Below, piece by piece: positions 3,176 to 47,200 of a stretch of DNA of 64,000 nt (position 1 is the first letter of the stretch; every line of letters begins with the position of its first letter). Under the pieces are notes generated by a model. That model worked only from the letters and a program-made list of their open reading frames with translations. It was not told where the DNA came from and searched no databases. Made by a program: the position numbers and the translations under genes. The stretch spans positions 6,903,501 through 6,967,500 of the forward strand of contig JAQISU010000057.1 of the NCBI GenBank assembly GCA_029339505.1, given 5' to 3'. This DNA is from Unio delphinus (Eukaryota; Mollusca; Bivalvia; Unionida; Unionidae).

Positions 3176-3553
3176 ATGGAGGCTTTTTTTCAAAACTTGT
3201 CAGCCAAAATTTCTTTAAATTCTGTCCTAGCACATAATAGTGATTGTCGAATATGGACTGGAAATGTAACTTCCAATGGATTATATGGCCTATTATCATA
3301 TAGGGACCCTGAGACAAACACATGGAAGAAAAAGCATGTCCACAGACTGGCATTAATGGTCAAGTTAAGAAGTCTGACTATTCCAAAGGAGCTTGATGCA
3401 TCCCATTTATGCCATAATAGTTTGTGTGTGAATACGGATCATCTAAATCTAGAACCGCATTCCATCAATAATAATAGGCAGTGCTGCAAAGGTTATGGGC
3501 ATTGCATTGGCCATGGTGACTTTCCAGACTGCATGATGAAGTTGAAATTATAA
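3176..3553 (+). CDS. His-Cys box (I-PpoI-like) homing endonuclease-type protein, copy 1
   Basis: A 125-aa protein matching the zinc-binding-loop / His-Me finger endonuclease family. The spacing of key residues parallels I-PpoI. C24 in DCRIWTG, C79, C84 and H89 form the expected first zinc site. H77 in SHLCHNSLC is the expected general base. N98, nine residues after H89, is the expected metal ligand. C104, C110, H113 and C119 form a second zinc site. The family cuts DNA, classically at a specific site that homing then repairs with a copy of the element. The start has good context (G at -3 and +4). The frame stays open for over a dozen codons upstream, so a longer or spliced N-terminus is possible. 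It converges on the transposase gene of the same unit. All seven copies in the window encode an identical protein, which suggests constraint or very recent amplification. Its target site is unknown. Confidence 0.88.
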   Translation: MEAFFQNLSAKISLNSVLAHNSDCRIWTGNVTSNGLYGLLSYRDPETNTWKKKHVHRLALMVKLRSLTIPKELDASHLCHNSLCVNTDHLNLEPHSINNNRQCCKGYGHCIGHGDFPDCMMKLKL

Positions 3554-3649: not shown

Positions 3650-3787
3650 TAGTGAGTAAGGAGGAGAAAAGAGAGTGTAGTCTTTATTTTAGTATGTCAT
3701 TCATACTGGTATAAAACTGCTCTTTTAGATTCATTCATTCCTTATTTATTTTGCTTTTTAATTTCTTTATTTGTGTCTTCATAGTCA

Positions 3788-3894
3788 GAAAAACTGTTTC
3801 GACCCCTCCATGGGTCTCATCAGGTGGTAGTAAGTAACACAACTGCACATAACATGCGTTGTGTTACATACGGATTTCCCCACTACAGTTTTCC
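3788..3894 (-). ncRNA. Type III hammerhead ribozyme, unit 1
   Basis: Read on the minus strand, all core elements occur in the right order. The 5' strand of stem III (3894-3885, GGAAAACUGU) is followed by cleavage nucleotide A (3884). Stem I follows: GUGG (3883-3880) pairs with CCAC (3827-3824), and beyond an internal loop GUAACACAAC (3867-3858) pairs with GUUGUGUUAC (3843-3834). Then come CUGAUGA (3823-3817), stem II GACCC/GGGUC with loop AUGGAG, GAAA (3800-3797), and the 3' strand of stem III (3797-3788, ACAGUUUUUC), giving about 10 pairs including one G-U. The predicted cut is GUA, between 3884 and 3883. It lies about 85 nt past the transposase stop on the same strand, so it would cut the transposase mRNA tail or read-through transcripts. 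Hammerheads are known in retrozymes and Penelope-like elements of animals. I know of none in a unit of this composition. Confidence 0.85.
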
Positions 3895-3978: not shown

Positions 3979-5973
3979 CTAAACCTGTGCATAGGAGTGA
4001 TCATCCTTTTTGTCCAGAAGTCCTTTGCAGTAGTCAGACTTTCTACTGCCTTGCTGAGTCCTGTACCTCAGATGAGCCTGGATCATTTTTCCTCGTCTTG
4101 ATAGGAGACGTCGCCTAGTTTGTGGACTCTTTTGATACAACTGATGGTAAGTGCATCGTTTATCCATTGTATCCAGTGATCGCAAAGTCCTTGATGACAG
4201 TTGACCTTTCAAGTGTGTCACCTTGGCTTTCAGTGATGATCCCAAGCTATTATTGAGTCTGTGTATTGTTGAATGCACTCTTGCCTCAAAGTTTCTGGAA
4301 TAGTTCACATTTTTGGGTAAGGAAACACTGATTGATCTGTTCATAGCCTCACATTTCTGTGTGTTTGTATTCAGTCGCAGTCTTTGTACAGCATCACAGG
4401 AGAGTTTCATTTTGAGAACTTCTAACAGGATTGTCTTATCATTTTCTGTCATGTTAAGATGAGTCACTTTATGAGGGCCTAGGTATGCTGATCGCATCCA
4501 CCAGTTGTTAGTACTTCCTCCCCCACAAACCTTGGAATAACGCCGGCATTTTGAGCAGTCCCCTGAATAACAGCGCAGAGTGGCATCCAGTACTTGTGGA
4601 AGTTGACCTTTAATTTTTATAACATCACCTCTGTTATCCTCCATCAGTTGTTTGAAGATCAAACTGCACCGAGCTTTGATGTCTTGACTGATAATTTTCT
4701 GTTTGAGCCTTTTTCCTTCTCTTGTTGTTATTCCTGGAAACATTTCGGCACTAAATACTGCAGAGTTGCACCGTTTGAACTGTGAACGACCCAGATGGAT
4801 GGGGTCTGACAGTCTTTCTACTTTCCACATTGGATGCAGAATGTTGTCAGCAGCTTGGAAGCCAGCAGCACCCTGTGCATCTCCATCTGTAGTTACATGT
4901 TTAATGAGAATCTCTTGCAGCACAAATTTGTTTCCAATTTCTTTTGCCATCTCATACTCAGAATGTGGTGCAACTGGTGACAGATTTGATGTGCAGTCAA
5001 CATGGCCTCCTGGACATTTCACATCAAAACCTTTCCCCTTCAGCCATGCTCCAGTCCAGCAGAGCTTGTTTTCTACTGTACAACCCACAATGTACTGCTT
5101 CTCTGTTACAGTTTCACAGGCAATTCCAACAGCTTGTGATGAACTTTGGCCAGGTTTCTTTTCATGTCCAAAGCTAAAGGCATTATATCTGGCATCAAAA
5201 GCAACATTTATTTGTTCAGGATGCTGAACTCCACGCATGACATTAACCTGTCGGACTAGTTTAAGTTTGTTTGTCATATCAATTTCATTGAGCTCAACGG
5301 TTGCTTTGCCTACAATGTTGGATGCTCTTTGCATAGATGATCTGCTAGGTGGTGGAATGTCAGTGGCTGCAAGCAAGTATCTAGCTCTGGTGTTGCCCAT
5401 AGGGGTATCTTGTAGTCCAGCTTGAAACATCAGATTAACAGCAGCAGGATTTGGCCCAGGTTTATCTGTTTTTATCTCCTCATATAACTTGTACTCTGGT
5501 GACTTAAAACTGCAGTTTTTGCACATCATAGTCTGCTTCCAAGCAAGTCCCCATTTTCTTTCATCAGCAATTTGGAACTCTGGCCTGTCACACATGTCGA
5601 ATTGATGACCATGGCGATGAATGATATCATTCCACATTTCAACATTTTTTTTCATGCATATGATTCGTGTTCCATCTTGCTCATTTAATTCTATCTTTTT
5701 CAGGTCCAGTTTTGATTTGGATAATGGTTGTAGAGTTTTTGCAGACCCTGGTTTGGCATTAGAGTCTGGAACCTGAGCAGATGAAAGAGACCCATTTGTC
5801 GGCTTTGTCACTGCTATCAGTGAGAACTTGTCTGCTTCCATTCTTCTGGTCACTGGGACTGATGCAGCACTGGAAATTGGTAGAGTATCATCCGTCAGAT
5901 ATCTGACTCCTTTGTTATGTGGAATATTTCCAGGTTTAAAATAAATTTTCTGCCTCTTCTTGTACCCCTTCAT
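3979..5973 (-). CDS. DDE transposase (Mutator/Kolobok-like), copy 2, intact
   Basis: A 664-aa single-exon protein. N-terminus: basic, with FKPGNIPHNKG at 12-22, a motif resembling DNA-binding modules next to HNH nucleases. Residues 128-154: C128 and CKNC (151-154), a likely zinc ribbon, in a region like the start of the Mutator-like transposase domain family. Catalytic candidates: D260 in AFDARYNAF, D363 or D365 in TTDGDAQGA, and E542 in NTQKCEAMNRS. Further Cys pairs: C320/C327 and C468/C473/C476/C483, the latter probably zinc-binding and inserted before the catalytic Glu. The C-terminus is Lys/Arg-rich (590-640). Such enzymes cut and join transposon ends in the nucleus. The start is the first ATG, with A at -3. 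The gene converges on the endonuclease gene and is followed by the hammerhead ribozyme. Family placement rests on motif recognition; Kolobok is the main alternative name for a closely related type. Confidence 0.88.
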   Translation of the reverse strand: MKGYKKRQKIYFKPGNIPHNKGVRYLTDDTLPISSAASVPVTRRMEADKFSLIAVTKPTNGSLSSAQVPDSNAKPGSAKTLQPLSKSKLDLKKIELNEQDGTRIICMKKNVEMWNDIIHRHGHQFDMCDRPEFQIADERKWGLAWKQTMMCKNCSFKSPEYKLYEEIKTDKPGPNPAAVNLMFQAGLQDTPMGNTRARYLLAATDIPPPSRSSMQRASNIVGKATVELNEIDMTNKLKLVRQVNVMRGVQHPEQINVAFDARYNAFSFGHEKKPGQSSSQAVGIACETVTEKQYIVGCTVENKLCWTGAWLKGKGFDVKCPGGHVDCTSNLSPVAPHSEYEMAKEIGNKFVLQEILIKHVTTDGDAQGAAGFQAADNILHPMWKVERLSDPIHLGRSQFKRCNSAVFSAEMFPGITTREGKRLKQKIISQDIKARCSLIFKQLMEDNRGDVIKIKGQLPQVLDATLRCYSGDCSKCRRYSKVCGGGSTNNWWMRSAYLGPHKVTHLNMTENDKTILLEVLKMKLSCDAVQRLRLNTNTQKCEAMNRSISVSLPKNVNYSRNFEARVHSTIHRLNNSLGSSLKAKVTHLKGQLSSRTLRSLDTMDKRCTYHQLYQKSPQTRRRLLSRRGKMIQAHLRYRTQQGSRKSDYCKGLLDKKDDHSYAQV

Positions 5974-8511: not shown

Positions 8512-8618
8512 GAAAAACTGTTTCGACCCCTCCATGGGTCTCATCAGGTGGTAGTAAGTAACACAACTGCACATAACATGCGTTGTGTTACATACGGATT
8601 TCCCCACTACAGTTTTCC
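8512..8618 (-). ncRNA. Type III hammerhead ribozyme, unit 2
   Basis: Core and all three stems are the same as in unit 1. The predicted cut lies between 8608 and 8607 on the minus strand. Confidence 0.85.
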
Positions 8619-13235: not shown

Positions 13236-13342
13236 GAAAAACTGTTTCGACCCCTCCATGGGTCTCATCAGGTGGTAGTAAGTAACACAACTGCACATAA
13301 CATGCGTTGTGTTACATACGGATTTCCCCACTACAGTTTTCC
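13236..13342 (-). ncRNA. Type III hammerhead ribozyme, unit 3
   Basis: No base change from the unit-1 ribozyme was noticed. The predicted cut lies between 13332 and 13331. Confidence 0.85.
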
Positions 13343-17959: not shown

Positions 17960-18066
17960 GAAAAACTGTTTCGACCCCTCCATGGGTCTCATCAGGTGGT
18001 AGTAAGTAACACAACTGCACATAACATGCGTTGTGTTACATACGGATTTCCCCACTACAGTTTTCC
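17960..18066 (-). ncRNA. Type III hammerhead ribozyme, unit 4
   Basis: The core and stems are preserved. The predicted cut lies between 18056 and 18055. Confidence 0.85.
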
Positions 18067-20878: not shown

Positions 20879-23153
20879 TGTTAGGAATCGCACCACAATT
20901 AATACTTCCAGTTCAGTACCCAGTCTATTTTTAGAACATTTTTTCCTCTCTCATTTTGGTGGTGATAGAAGAGTTATATTGATCCATATTTGGTAGGGAT
21001 TTAAAGGTAATTGTTTATTCTTGAGAATATGAGGAGAGAGAGTGGTTGTCAGTGTGTAATTTGGCGACAGTGCAAATGGAGTAATAAGGCCTTGGTGATG
21101 ATCCGGAAGTGAAATATGTGTTCTGTTTACATGCTGCTATGTTTACAGTGCTGCAGCTCAAAAAAATGCCGATCAACCCCTGACAAGATTTTCACCGTGA
21201 AGTCATCTTTGGAGGTATTTTGGATTAACATATGATTTGTATTGATTGTCACACTGTGGAAAGGTCAGTACTGAGAAATATATGTAGAGAACATATAGTA
21301 AAATTAATTGTGGTCTATGTCCTGTTAGGAATTGCACCACAATTAATACTTCCAGTTCAGTACCCACGAATGTAGTTCCAGTCTATTTTTAGAACATTTT
21401 TTCCTCGCTCATTTTGGTGGTGATAGAAGAGTTATATTGATCCATATTTGGTAGGGATTTAAAGGTAATTGTTTATTCTTGAGAATATGAGCAGAGAGAG
21501 TGGTTGTCAGTGTGTAATTTGGCGACAGTGCAATGGAGTAATAAGGCCTTGGTGATGATCCGGAAGTGAAATATGTGTTCTGTTTACATGCTGTTATGTT
21601 TACAGTGCTGCAGCTCAAAAAAATGCCGATCAACCCCTGACAAGATTTTCACCGTGAAGTCATCTTTGGAGGTATTTTGGATTAACATATGATTTGTATT
21701 GATTGTCACACTGTGGAAAGGTCAGTACTGAGAAATATATGTAGAGAACATATAGTAAAATTAATTGTGGTCTATGTCCTGTTAGGAATTGCACCACAAT
21801 TAATACTTCCAGTTCAGTACCCACGAATGTAGTTCCAGTCTATTTTTAGAACATTTTTTCCTCTCTCATTTTGGTGGTGATAGAAGAGTTATATTGATCC
21901 ATATTTGGTAGGGATTTAAAGGTAATTGTTTATTCTTGAGAATATGAGGAGAGAGAGTGGTTGTCAGTGTGTAATTTGGCGACAGTGCAAATGGAGTAAT
22001 AAGGCCTTGGTGATGATCCGGAAGTGAAATATGTGTTCTGTTTACATGCTGCTATGTTTACAGTGCTGCAGCTCAAAAAAATGCCGATCAACCCCTGACA
22101 AGATTTTCACCGTGAAGTCATCTTTGGAGGTATTTTGGATTAACATATGATTTGTATTGATTGTCACACTGTGGAAAGGTCAGTACTGAGAAATATATGT
22201 AGAGAACATATAGTAAAATTAATTGTGGTCTATGTCCTGTTAGGAATTGCACCACAATTAATACTTCCAGTTCAGTACCCACGAATGTAGTTCCAGTCTA
22301 TTTTTAGAACATTTTTTCCTCGCTCATTTTGGTGGTGATAGAAGAGTTATATTGATCCATATTTGGTAGGGATTTAAAGGTAATTGTTTATTCTTGAGAA
22401 TATGAGCAGAGAGAGTGGTTGTCAGTGTGTAATTTGGCGACAGTGCAAATGGAGTAATAAGGCCTTGGTGATGATCCGGAAGTGAAATATGTGTTCTGTT
22501 TACATGCTGTTATGTTTACAGTGCTGCAGCTCAAAAAAATGCCGATCAACCCCTGACAAGATTTTCACCGTGAAGTCATCTTTGGAGGTATTTTGGATTA
22601 ACATATGATTTGTATTGATTGTCACACTGTGGAAAGGTCAGTACTGAGAAATATATGTAGAGAACATATAGTAAAATTAATTGTGGTCTATGTCCTGTTA
22701 GGAATTGCACCACAATTAATACTTCCAGTTCAGTACCCACGAATGTAGTTCCAGTCTATTTTTAGAACATTTTTTCCTCTCTCATTTTGGTGGTGATAGA
22801 AGAGTTATATTGATCCATATTTGGTAGGGATTTAAAGGTAATTGTTTATTCTTGAGAATATGAGCAGAGAGAGTGGTTGTCAGTGTGTAATTTGGCGACA
22901 GTGCAAATGGAGTAATAAGGCCTTGGTGATGATCCGGAAGTGAAATATGTGTTCTGTTTACATGCTGCTATGTTTACAGTGCTGCAGCTCAAAAAAATGC
23001 CGATCAACCCCTGACAAGATTTTCACCGTGAAGTCATCTTTGGAGGTATTTTGGATTAACATATGATTTGTATTGATTGTCACACTGTGGAAAGGTCAGT
23101 ACTGAGAAATATATGTAGAGAACATATAGTAAAATTAATTGTGGTCTATGTCC
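20879..23153. repeat. Expanded block of five 458-bp subrepeats, unit 5
   Basis: The copies are 20879-21322 (444 bp, lacking 14 bp just after cagtaccca), 21323-21779 (457 bp), 21780-22237, 22238-22695 and 22696-23153. Copies 1 and 3 share gagaatatgaggaga. Copies 2 and 4 share cctcgctc and ctgttatg. The fifth is the ordinary second type. The pattern A-B-A-B-C shows amplification as dimers of about 915 bp, probably by unequal exchange within the block. A 74-aa frame at 21409-21633 (minus) is created only by the 1-bp deletion in copy 2 and is not a gene. Confidence 0.93.
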
Positions 23154-24041: not shown

Positions 24042-24148
24042 GAAAAACTGTTTCGACCCCTCCATGGGTCTCATCAGGTGGTAGTAAGTAACACAACTGC
24101 ACATAACATGCGTTGTGTTACATACGGATTTCCCCACTACAGTTTTCC
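24042..24148 (-). ncRNA. Type III hammerhead ribozyme, unit 5
   Basis: The core and stems are preserved. The predicted cut lies between 24138 and 24137. Confidence 0.85.
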
Positions 24149-28765: not shown

Positions 28766-28872
28766 GAAAAACTGTTTCGACCCCTCCATGGGTCTCATCA
28801 GGTGGTAGTAAGTAACACAACTGCACATAACATGCGTTGTGTTACATACGGATTTCCCCACTACAGTTTTCC
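28766..28872 (-). ncRNA. Type III hammerhead ribozyme, unit 6
   Basis: The core and stems are preserved. The predicted cut lies between 28862 and 28861. Confidence 0.85.
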
Positions 28873-33489: not shown

Positions 33490-33596
33490 GAAAAACTGTT
33501 TCGACCCCTCCATGGGTCTCATCAGGTGGTAGTAAGTAACACAACTGCACATAACATGCGTTGTGTTACATACGGATTTCCCCACTACAGTTTTCC
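33490..33596 (-). ncRNA. Type III hammerhead ribozyme, unit 7
   Basis: The core and stems are preserved. The predicted cut lies between 33586 and 33585. Confidence 0.85.
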
Positions 33597-36408: not shown

Positions 36409-36852
36409 TGTTAGGAATCGCACCACAATTAATACTTCCAGTTCAGTACCCAGTCTATTTTTAGAACATTTTTTCCTCTCTCATTTTGGTGGTGATAGAA
36501 GAGTTATATTGATCCATATTTGGTAGGGATTTAAAGGTAATTGTTTATTCTTGAGAATATGAGGAGAGAGAGTGGTTGTCAGTGTGTAATTTGGCGACAG
36601 TGCAAATGGAGTAATAAGGCCTTGGTGATGATCCGGAAGTGAAATATGTGTTCTGTTTACATGCTGCTATGTTTACAGTGCTGCAGCTCAAAAAAATGCC
36701 GATCAACCCCTGACAAGATTTTCACCGTGAAGTCATCTTTGGAGGTATTTTGGATTAACATATGATTTGTATTGATTGTCACACTGTGGAAAGGTCAGTA
36801 CTGAGAAATATATGTAGAGAACATATAGTAAAATTAATTGTGGTCTATGTCC
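36409..36852. repeat. Single terminal subrepeat, end of array
   Basis: One complete 444-bp copy of the deleted, gaggaga type found as the first copy in unit 5. It ends with ctatgtcc exactly where other copies join the next tgttagg. Non-array sequence follows immediately, so the array boundary coincides to the base with a subrepeat boundary. Confidence 0.92.
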
Positions 36853-40424: not shown

Positions 40425-40903
40425 TCATCTATGTACTTCTGACAAAACATAATGATGTGGAATCAGGCTGTGAATCTTCTCATAACTGATAAAGATTTCT
40501 AATCTGTCATGGTACACATCATTTGGCACAGGCTTCAGTTGAAAGAAATCACCAGAAACAATGATCTGAATGCCACCAAATGGGAAATTGCTTTCCTTTA
40601 CTGTTCTGAGCACCTTCTCTATTTGCAGAAATGATTTCAGAGATAGCATGGAAATTTCATCGATAAAAAGAGTGTCAACATTCATAATCCTTCTTTTAAT
40701 ATCTATCATATCATCATTATTTTTATTCTTATCTATCAAAATATCATCGGGGAAACGACCGTCCTGAATGCCCGAAAACTTGTGTATTGTCATTCAGTGC
40801 AACTGAGAAGCAGCTATACCTGTACTGGCTGTTAAGTAAACTGTTTTCCCTATTTCTTTCAGTCTTTTGCTTAAATTCTTAACTAGGAAGCTTTTACCAT
40901 ACT
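40425..40903 (-). pseudogene. Pif1-family DNA helicase fragment
   Basis: Read from the right: the tail of a Walker A motif (YGKSFLVKNL, 40902-40873), LTASTGIAAS (motif Ia), a stop, THIKFSGI-type sequence written here as TIHKFSGIQDGRF, Walker B with VDTLFIDEISML, motif III as VSGDFFQLKPV, and LSEVHR (motif IV region). These are Pif1/RecD-like superfamily 1B helicase signatures; the family unwinds DNA 5' to 3'. The gene is truncated just before the first glycines of Walker A, where unrelated sequence begins at about 40,905. A TGA interrupts it near 40796, and the C-terminal half is missing or spliced away. The open part (40425-40793) is 122 aa. It is a dead or exon-level remnant belonging to the inverted-repeat element. 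Confidence 0.8.
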
Positions 40904-46997: not shown

Positions 46998-47200
46998 AAC
47001 ACAATTAATTTGACTATATATTCTCTATAGACCATTCTTAGAATATATAAGAATGGTCTATACTTGTTTCTCAGTACTGAACTTTCCACAGTGTGACCAT
47101 CAATAAAAACCGTATATTAATCGAAAATACTTCAAAGATGACTTTACGGTCGGGCAAGTTCTTGCTATAGGTTCACCAGCATTTTTTGAGAGGCTGAGAG
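46998..47200 (-). repeat. Diverged inverted copy of the array's 458-bp subrepeat (partial)
   Basis: Reverse complement of the right-hand part of the array subrepeat. Shared blocks include cacaattaatt, actatat-ttctcta, tttctcagtactga, tttccacagtgtgac, aaagatgactt-acggt and gcatttttttgag. It starts at the subrepeat's inverted-repeat edge and carries an extra 37-bp block containing a perfect hairpin. The other end of the subrepeat is missing. This shows that the subrepeat exists outside the array and has a discrete end. Confidence 0.8.
47026..47062. repeat. Perfect 15-bp hairpin within the diverged subrepeat
   Basis: tatagaccattctta (47026-47040), 7-nt loop, then its exact reverse complement (47048-47062). 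It is absent from the array copies of the subrepeat. Confidence 0.95.

Follow-up and report, generated by a model that had tools for sequence, protein, structure and literature searches.

A Predicted Type III Hammerhead Ribozyme Downstream of the Transposase Gene in a KolobokP DNA Transposon of Unio delphinus: A Putative 3′-UTR Element

Introduction

In the available parts of the relevant literature (PMC7229834, PMC7761336, PMC7936874, PMC6155905), hammerhead ribozymes are associated with retroelements and RNA replicons, and also with satellite DNA and a small number of genes. In the retrozymes, the ribozyme differs with the host lineage, type III hammerheads being found in the LTR retrozymes of plants and type I in those of the metazoans, according to the accessible text of the respective papers (PMC7229834, PMC7761336). 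Type III hammerheads with a long stem are described, in the available portion of another study, from the HDV-like RNAs of a toad and a termite, and from fly and termite genomes (PMC7936874). In the mammals, the Clec2 genes carry a discontinuous, atypical type III hammerhead in the 3′ UTR, for which a part in the choice of polyadenylation site has been suggested, with the function of such 3′-UTR hammerheads being given as still unknown in the accessible text of a 2017 review (PMC6155905).

The KolobokP elements, in turn, are DNA transposons that generate target site duplications of 3–5 bp and form multimers, as set out in the available text of their description (Kojima and Bao 2022, PMC9587614). 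No hammerhead associated with Kolobok, or located in any DNA transposon, was found in the literature searched, which mostly excludes subscription papers and was judged from passages of PMC8490949 and, for the other papers on DNA transposons, from their listing entries. Given this, what appears to be new in the locus described here is that the hammerhead is carried by a class II transposon, KolobokP itself being already known.

The Host Element

The window, that is, the whole stretch of 64,000 nucleotides of Unio delphinus DNA that was analysed, is occupied at positions 1–36852 by a tandem array, the right end of which coincides with the end of a terminal direct repeat (LTDR) at 36852, while more copies lie to the left of the window. 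The array is composed of units of 4,724 bp and one unit that additional terminal repeats bring to 6,082 bp; the units are 99.9–100% identical where fully aligned. Each unit encodes a transposase, of 664 amino acids in the first unit (3979–5973, minus strand; PF20700, E = 7.2e-74, 249 bits), and, convergent with it, a His-Me finger nuclease of the I-PpoI-like type (3176–3553, plus strand; PF05551, E = 2.9e-9), which also matches the I-PpoI chains in the PDB weakly, with a best E value of 0.019. The Pfam search of three open reading frames of the unit recovered the transposase, the nuclease, and nothing else, with no match to a reverse transcriptase. The residues D260, D365, D390xxH393, and E542 are invariant in 36 aligned sequences, and are probably the catalytic and signature residues of a Kolobok-type DDD/E transposase.

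The LTDR is 453 bp long (1988–2440), runs from GGAATCGC to ATGTCC, and has ACCACAATTAAT in inverted orientation near both ends; it is followed in the first unit by a second, abutted LTDR (2446–2898), separated from it by the 5-nt spacer TGTTA. A PF20700 transposase, a His-Me nuclease on the complementary strand downstream, terminal direct repeats of approximately 450 bp with terminal inverted repeats in the configuration 5′-RR...YY-3′ (here 453 bp, GG...CC, with the inverted ACCACAATTAAT), and (LTDR-INT)n multimers are the features by which KolobokP is recognized, and all of them are present. Judged from its sequence organization, the DNA transposon that hosts the ribozyme belongs to KolobokP. 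An assignment to MULE/Mutator proper was rejected, the resemblance being one of Pfam name only and the anatomy that of KolobokP. Of the two flanks that would show a target site duplication, the right one is visible in the window, and the array continues to the left of it.

A number of other features of the array and its surroundings were observed. One unit has five LTDRs in a row (20884–23153), while two LTDRs with the TGTTA spacer occur at 1988–2898 and at homologous places, and these abutted repeats may be the trace of circle junctions, or of the insertion of one LTDR beside another. The same change, close to codon 24 of the transposase, is present in three units (10628, 35606, and 1180, the last cut by the start of the window). 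The two complete ones have a shorter listed reading frame, of 624 amino acids, and the five other units are open over 664. Several transposase copies elsewhere in the genome have single stops. Outside the array, a minus-strand segment (47067–47187) matches part of the LTDR at approximately 80%, and is probably an old LTDR remnant, while positions 40425–40793 carry a fragment of a PIF1-like helicase (PF05970, E = 1.8e-13), possibly from a Helitron. No Pfam family was recovered from 10 open reading frames to the right of the array.

Related transposases are abundant in public data, with at least 155 proteins, 120 of them listed, and identities of up to 88% among the matches listed, where the named sources are Haliotis, Patella, Mizuhopecten, and Mytilus, together with a few bacterial metagenome-assembled genomes (MAGs), in which the transposases probably represent host contamination. 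A single DNA record from outside the genome was available for comparison, at 48% identity (L001). This contig, catalogued under a bacterial MAG (Chromatiales), carries a KolobokP transposase, and is probably contamination from an animal host; the matches named Sedimenticola and Thiodiazotropha resemble this case. No relatives were found in IMG/VR, either with one protein or with an alignment as the query, nor in phages or plasmids.

The Hammerhead Motif and Its Fold

The minus strand at positions 3788–3894 contains, from 5′ to 3′, the 5′ side of stem III, UA, stem I, CUGAUGA, stem II, GAAA, and the 3′ side of stem III, an arrangement that presents the CUGANGA, GAAA, and UH elements in the type III order. 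Stem I has 4 bp plus a distal hairpin, stem II has 5 bp, and stem III has 11 bp. The scan of the 64 kb with a type III descriptor recovered one copy in each of the seven complete units of the array and nothing else, with H17 at 3884, 8608, 13332, 18056, 24138, 28862, and 33586. Given the H17 at 3884, the predicted cut in the first copy falls between 3884 and 3883. The six other copies (8512–8618, 13236–13342, 17960–18066, 24042–24148, 28766–28872, and 33490–33596, the last at 6936990–6937096 of the contig), all on the minus strand, are supported by the unit alignment, the descriptor scan, and the genome match, and the first by its sequence, Rfam score, fold, and the descriptor scan. A relaxed scan of the window, which allowed one core mismatch and included types I and III, returned only the same seven places, and neither scan found a ribozyme on the plus strand.

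The preliminary description of this DNA had already recognized the type III order, the GUA cleavage site, the location after the transposase stop codon, the presence in all seven complete units, and a cut between 3884 and 3883, and each of these points agrees with the present sequence reading and scans. It had also drawn attention to the lack of visible change among the seven copies, which do indeed match, but this sameness carries no weight because the whole units are nearly identical throughout, and the identity of the window copies was rejected as a sign of selection on the same grounds.

When folded with RNAfold, the 116-nt region has a minimum free energy (MFE) of −43.7 kcal/mol (z = −4.56), equaled by none of 200 shuffles, and the three helices meet at the core in both the MFE and the centroid structures, which represent the hammerhead three-way junction itself. 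The helix pair probabilities are 0.79–1.0 in this RNA, while in longer transcripts, competing folds reduce them to 0.04–0.71 for stem III and 0.22–0.65 for the proximal stem I, depending on the pair and the stretch considered.

The covariance-model search, by which the preliminary description had proposed to check the motif, does return a match to the Rfam type III hammerhead (RF00008), with an E value of 0.03 in a search of 501 bases, but its score of 22.2 bits lies below the gathering cut-off of 48.5 bits, an outcome partly against the preliminary description, and the 5′ strand of the actual stem I is missing from the alignment. The low score is probably due for the most part to the unusual length of stem I in comparison with a model of only 54 nt. 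This shortfall, together with the fact that the plus strand of the region also folds well (z = −3.73), would suit a chance fold, or a feature acting at the DNA level, such as a cruciform or a transposase site, that merely resembles a hammerhead. The simulations point in the other direction. Dinucleotide shuffles of the unit, amounting to 1.89 Mb, contained no match to the descriptor, and 4,000 Mb of first-order Markov sequence, modelled on the unit and on the right part of the window and scanned on both strands, yielded 152 matches with stems of at least 4/4/4 bp, two with a stem II of at least 5 bp and a stem III of at least 7 bp, and none with summed stems of at least 20 bp, the observed sum being 4 + 5 + 11 = 20. 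In the genome, the pattern of catalytic letters has 157 matches, against 7 for the reversed pattern, and the inverted repeats that would serve for transposase binding lie at the ends of the LTDRs, away from the ribozyme. A chance origin is excluded at the observed strength of the motif, and a mere resemblance of either kind is very improbable. On the basis of its core, fold, and rarity in simulated sequence, the feature can be considered, with high confidence, to be a genuine hammerhead competent to cut.

The terminal loop of stem II, AUGGA, can pair with UCCGU in the internal loop of stem I (−4.9 kcal/mol, five pairs), a value reached by 5.7% of random hexamer loops, and this pairing is, on its own, only mildly unlikely. 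All five loop–loop pairs are kept in 34 of the 39 distinct copies recovered from the genome, and at least four in all 39. The ribozyme may belong to the type III hammerheads of the long-stem-I class, with a predicted pseudoknot between loops I and II, in which case the pseudoknotted type III class known from some HDV-like RNAs gains another DNA home.

The Tandem Array and the Processing of Its Transcripts

The head-to-tail arrangement of units with one ribozyme each led the preliminary description to suggest a process like that of the retrozymes, which use hammerheads for such processing according to the available text of the relevant papers (PMC7229834, PMC7761336). In the wider version considered here, transcripts reading through the array, or through an extrachromosomal circle, would be cut into units of 4.7 kb, and perhaps circularized. 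In its fullest form, the hammerhead would be a working part of the life cycle of the transposon and would cut transcripts of arrays or of circular LTDR-INT molecules into unit-length or circular transposase RNAs, with the formation of the array and the processing of its RNA being parts of one system; if true, this combination of ribozyme and array would resemble the rolling-circle RNA agents, but in the setting of a class II transposon. The accessible text of the KolobokP description includes a discussion of circular DNA intermediates (PMC9587614).

Several observations weigh against this scheme. The retrozymes are short, non-coding, and non-autonomous, and their hammerheads sit in the terminal or tandem repeats at their borders, whereas the unit here has 4,724 bp and two protein genes, lacks a reverse transcriptase among its Pfam matches, is a transposase-based DNA transposon, and carries the ribozyme in its internal region (3788–3894), with the LTDRs at 1988–2898. 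Three AAUAAA signals lie downstream of the ribozyme on the same strand (3683–3771, minus strand, starting at 3771, 3750, and 3688), so that many transcripts should end before the next unit, and monomers could only be formed by reading past all three. The motif is also kept in copies scattered over many contigs, a distribution noted here without regard to whether each of these copies is single. To our knowledge, the production of monomers serves no known step of DNA transposition. The making of monomers in the manner of a retrozyme is not supported; it is less likely than a role in the 3′ UTR and improbable overall, although it may occur in transcripts of circles or arrays.

Copies Across the Genome

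The assembly searched comprises 2.5 Gb in 1,246 contigs, and the retention of the ribozyme elsewhere in it goes beyond what the preliminary description could see. With the ribozyme as the query, 40 scored matches were obtained among 195 candidates, at 98–100%. For the pattern of catalytic letters, the first 100 of the 157 matches were listed; 13 of these 100 were unrelated by eye, and 35 were fetched. A separate search used a transposase from Haliotis as the query, and gave 67 scored places among 3,127 candidates; the ribozyme was found in the 3′ flanks of all 20 of these places that were fetched, and its core is intact in 19 of them. Nineteen of the 20 lie on contigs that were new in relation to the ribozyme query, where the presence of the ribozyme was not known beforehand, and one copy (L063, on C121) was already known. 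A second transposase query (P0056) returned the same family among the 66 of 3,511 candidates that were scored, so that the copies compared here represent this one family of KolobokP in the genome.

The core is also intact in 33 of the 35 rows of the set gathered by ribozyme similarity or neighbourhood, and in 31 of the 33 rows of the pattern set, in which the pattern itself fixes most of the core letters. Core changes are present in L033, L037, L058, L068, and L098, the last with a 5′ part unlike the rest. The alignment of these 88 rows (35 + 20 + 33) contains 39 distinct sequences, with L026/L040 and L010/L063 being the same copies counted twice, and it leaves out L002–L007, the matches spanning less than 86 nt of the query (including the partial L071 and L078, and the fragments of L042), and those running off the locus. 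Spacings of approximately 3.97 and 4.4 kb in arrays elsewhere represent shorter variants of the unit, in which the ribozyme is kept.

Divergence and Pairing Constraint

Among the 39 distinct copies, standard pairs occupy 96.5% of 1,469 pair cells, against 96.2 ± 0.1 in the shuffles, 21 of 500 of which reached the observed value, while sliding the partners left at most 54.5% paired. The covariation score was reached by 19 of 500 shuffles, and the number of pairs changed on both sides (two, one sequence each: GC to AU in stem I and GC to UG in stem II) compares with 1.2 expected and was reached by 168 of 500. The covariation signal is weak, given that the shuffles nearly equal the observed pairing. 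The closing pair of stem II occurs as CG, UG, and UA, pair 28–61 as GC, GU, and AU, and an 8-nt deletion in L074, L076, and L097 leaves the distal part of stem I still pairable by inspection. In the RNAalifold consensus of the same 39 copies, stem II is reproduced, together with the greater part of stem III and a large portion of the distal stem I, and the proximal stem I is shifted to a different register in which core bases take part.

Divergence was compared at 52 loci, each of which offered 60 or more ribozyme positions for comparison, with the positions that the search pattern itself determines set aside. In the dispersed copies, the ribozyme differs from the window copy by 6.0% and the flanks by 8.3–10.0%, while in the array copies, the ribozyme differs by 4.7%, the 5′ flank by 2.1%, and the 3′ flank by 5.6%; in only 29 of the 52 loci has the ribozyme changed less than the flanking sequence. 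The clearest apparent sign of constraint is provided by five diverged loci (L072, L074–L076, and L097), in which 7–13% of the ribozyme is changed in comparison with 24–27% of the flanks (Fisher p = 7e-5 to 0.02), the five being non-independent, with L074 and L097 identical over 534 bp. In L074, for example, 6 of 81 positions are changed in the ribozyme and 58 of 213 in the flanks. Subfamily recombination could also produce a contrast of this type. In a further comparison, of 11 copies, two older ones in L032 have a ribozyme less changed than the flanks (4.7 vs. 12.2%, p = 0.010, and 1.9 vs. 7.1%, p = 0.018), and in the remaining 9 it is not slower (p = 0.7–0.98).

These figures lend themselves to a serious rival reading, in which this KolobokP lineage acquired the hammerhead a single time, with an HDV-like RNA or a retrozyme as one conceivable origin, and has since multiplied it along with its own copies, the ribozyme having little function or none. 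Most of the copies are young and nearly identical, for which reason an intact core is partly to be expected in any case; in 23 of the 52 loci, as in the 9 copies just mentioned, the ribozyme is not slower than its flanks; and some copies have broken cores. The motif is also absent from the outside relative, L001, where the 714 nt that follow the match to the transposase contain no hammerhead, so that the ribozyme is not universal in KolobokP. The preliminary description had held that relatives lacking the paired stems would speak against its interpretation, and this one relative does so in part. Passive carriage accords less well with the intact core in 19 of the 20 transposase-anchored loci, the many structure-compatible changes among the copies, and the contrast in the five diverged loci, and it is considered to be the less probable account, albeit one with a substantial minority share.

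A Possible Role in the 3′ UTR of the Transposase

From the stop codon of the transposase, it is 84 nt to the start of the ribozyme and 95 nt to the predicted cut, with the three AAUAAA signals just beyond, a position that would place the ribozyme within the expected 3′ UTR. No read-through into the ribozyme was found among 7 of 17 nuclease relatives or in the tails of 33 of 121 transposase relatives. In the copies of L008–L041, there are approximately 150 bp more between the ribozyme and the nuclease (at window position 3743), past the first two AAUAAA as counted from the ribozyme.

The reading preferred here is that the hammerhead, of the long-stem-I, pseudoknotted class, is an element embedded in the 3′ UTR of KolobokP that cuts the transposase RNA in cis, and a probability of roughly 0.55 is attached to this statement as a whole, including the structural class and the effect on expression. 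It supposes that the segment is transcribed as a 3′ UTR, that the ribozyme is catalytically active, and that it acts in cis in vivo. The cut would fall after the stop codon of this RNA and ahead of its poly(A) signals, and the coding part would then end 95 nt past the stop, with a 2′,3′-cyclic phosphate and without a poly(A) tail, while the downstream fragment, with a 5′-OH, would be released and would continue as antisense to the convergent nuclease gene. The output of transposase may be held down in this way, and the overlap of sense and antisense RNA between the two convergent genes reduced. A cut in cis in the 3′ UTR appears to be the most likely role in view of the short distance from the stop codon to the cut, the closeness of the poly(A) signals that follow it, and the separation that it would bring about of the coding RNA from both its tail and the nuclease antisense.

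If the transposase 3′ UTR does retain a hammerhead, a class II element would be able to control its own enzyme through the self-cutting of its RNA, and the locus would provide a tractable system for the study of what the 3′-UTR hammerheads do.

Comparison with Known Systems

The element shares with the KolobokP of the published description a PF20700 transposase, a convergent His-Me nuclease of the I-PpoI-like type, tandem multimers, and LTDRs of approximately 450 bp with short terminal inverted repeats, starting with GG and ending with CC, as far as these are given in the accessible text (PMC9587614). It differs from it in that no ribozyme or hammerhead is mentioned in the available main text on KolobokP, while the element of the window carries one, and in having two abutted LTDRs per unit, an 'LTDR-LTDR' arrangement being absent from that text.

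With the retrozymes of plants and metazoans, as portrayed in the available parts of their literature (PMC7229834, PMC7761336), the locus shares the presence of hammerheads in repeated mobile DNA, although the retrozymes are non-autonomous retroelements and the unit here is a DNA transposon with two genes. A structural likeness is found in the long-stem type III hammerheads of HDV-like RNAs and insect genomes, which, in the accessible text, have the same type III order, a short first part of stem I, an internal loop, an extra hairpin, and Watson–Crick or wobble pairing of the internal loop with loop II, a contact represented here by complementarity (PMC7936874). In those ribozymes, however, the first part of stem I has 5 bp and stem II has 6 bp, in contrast with 4 and 5 bp here, and they occur in RNA replicons or as isolated genomic copies, rather than in a DNA transposon.

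The nearest precedent for the proposed role in the 3′ UTR is the hammerhead of Clec2, which is likewise an atypical type III ribozyme in that position. According to the available text of the review (PMC6155905), the helix I of the Clec2 ribozyme spans 150–1500 nt and its home is a host gene, whereas the ribozyme of the window is compact and lies in a transposon.
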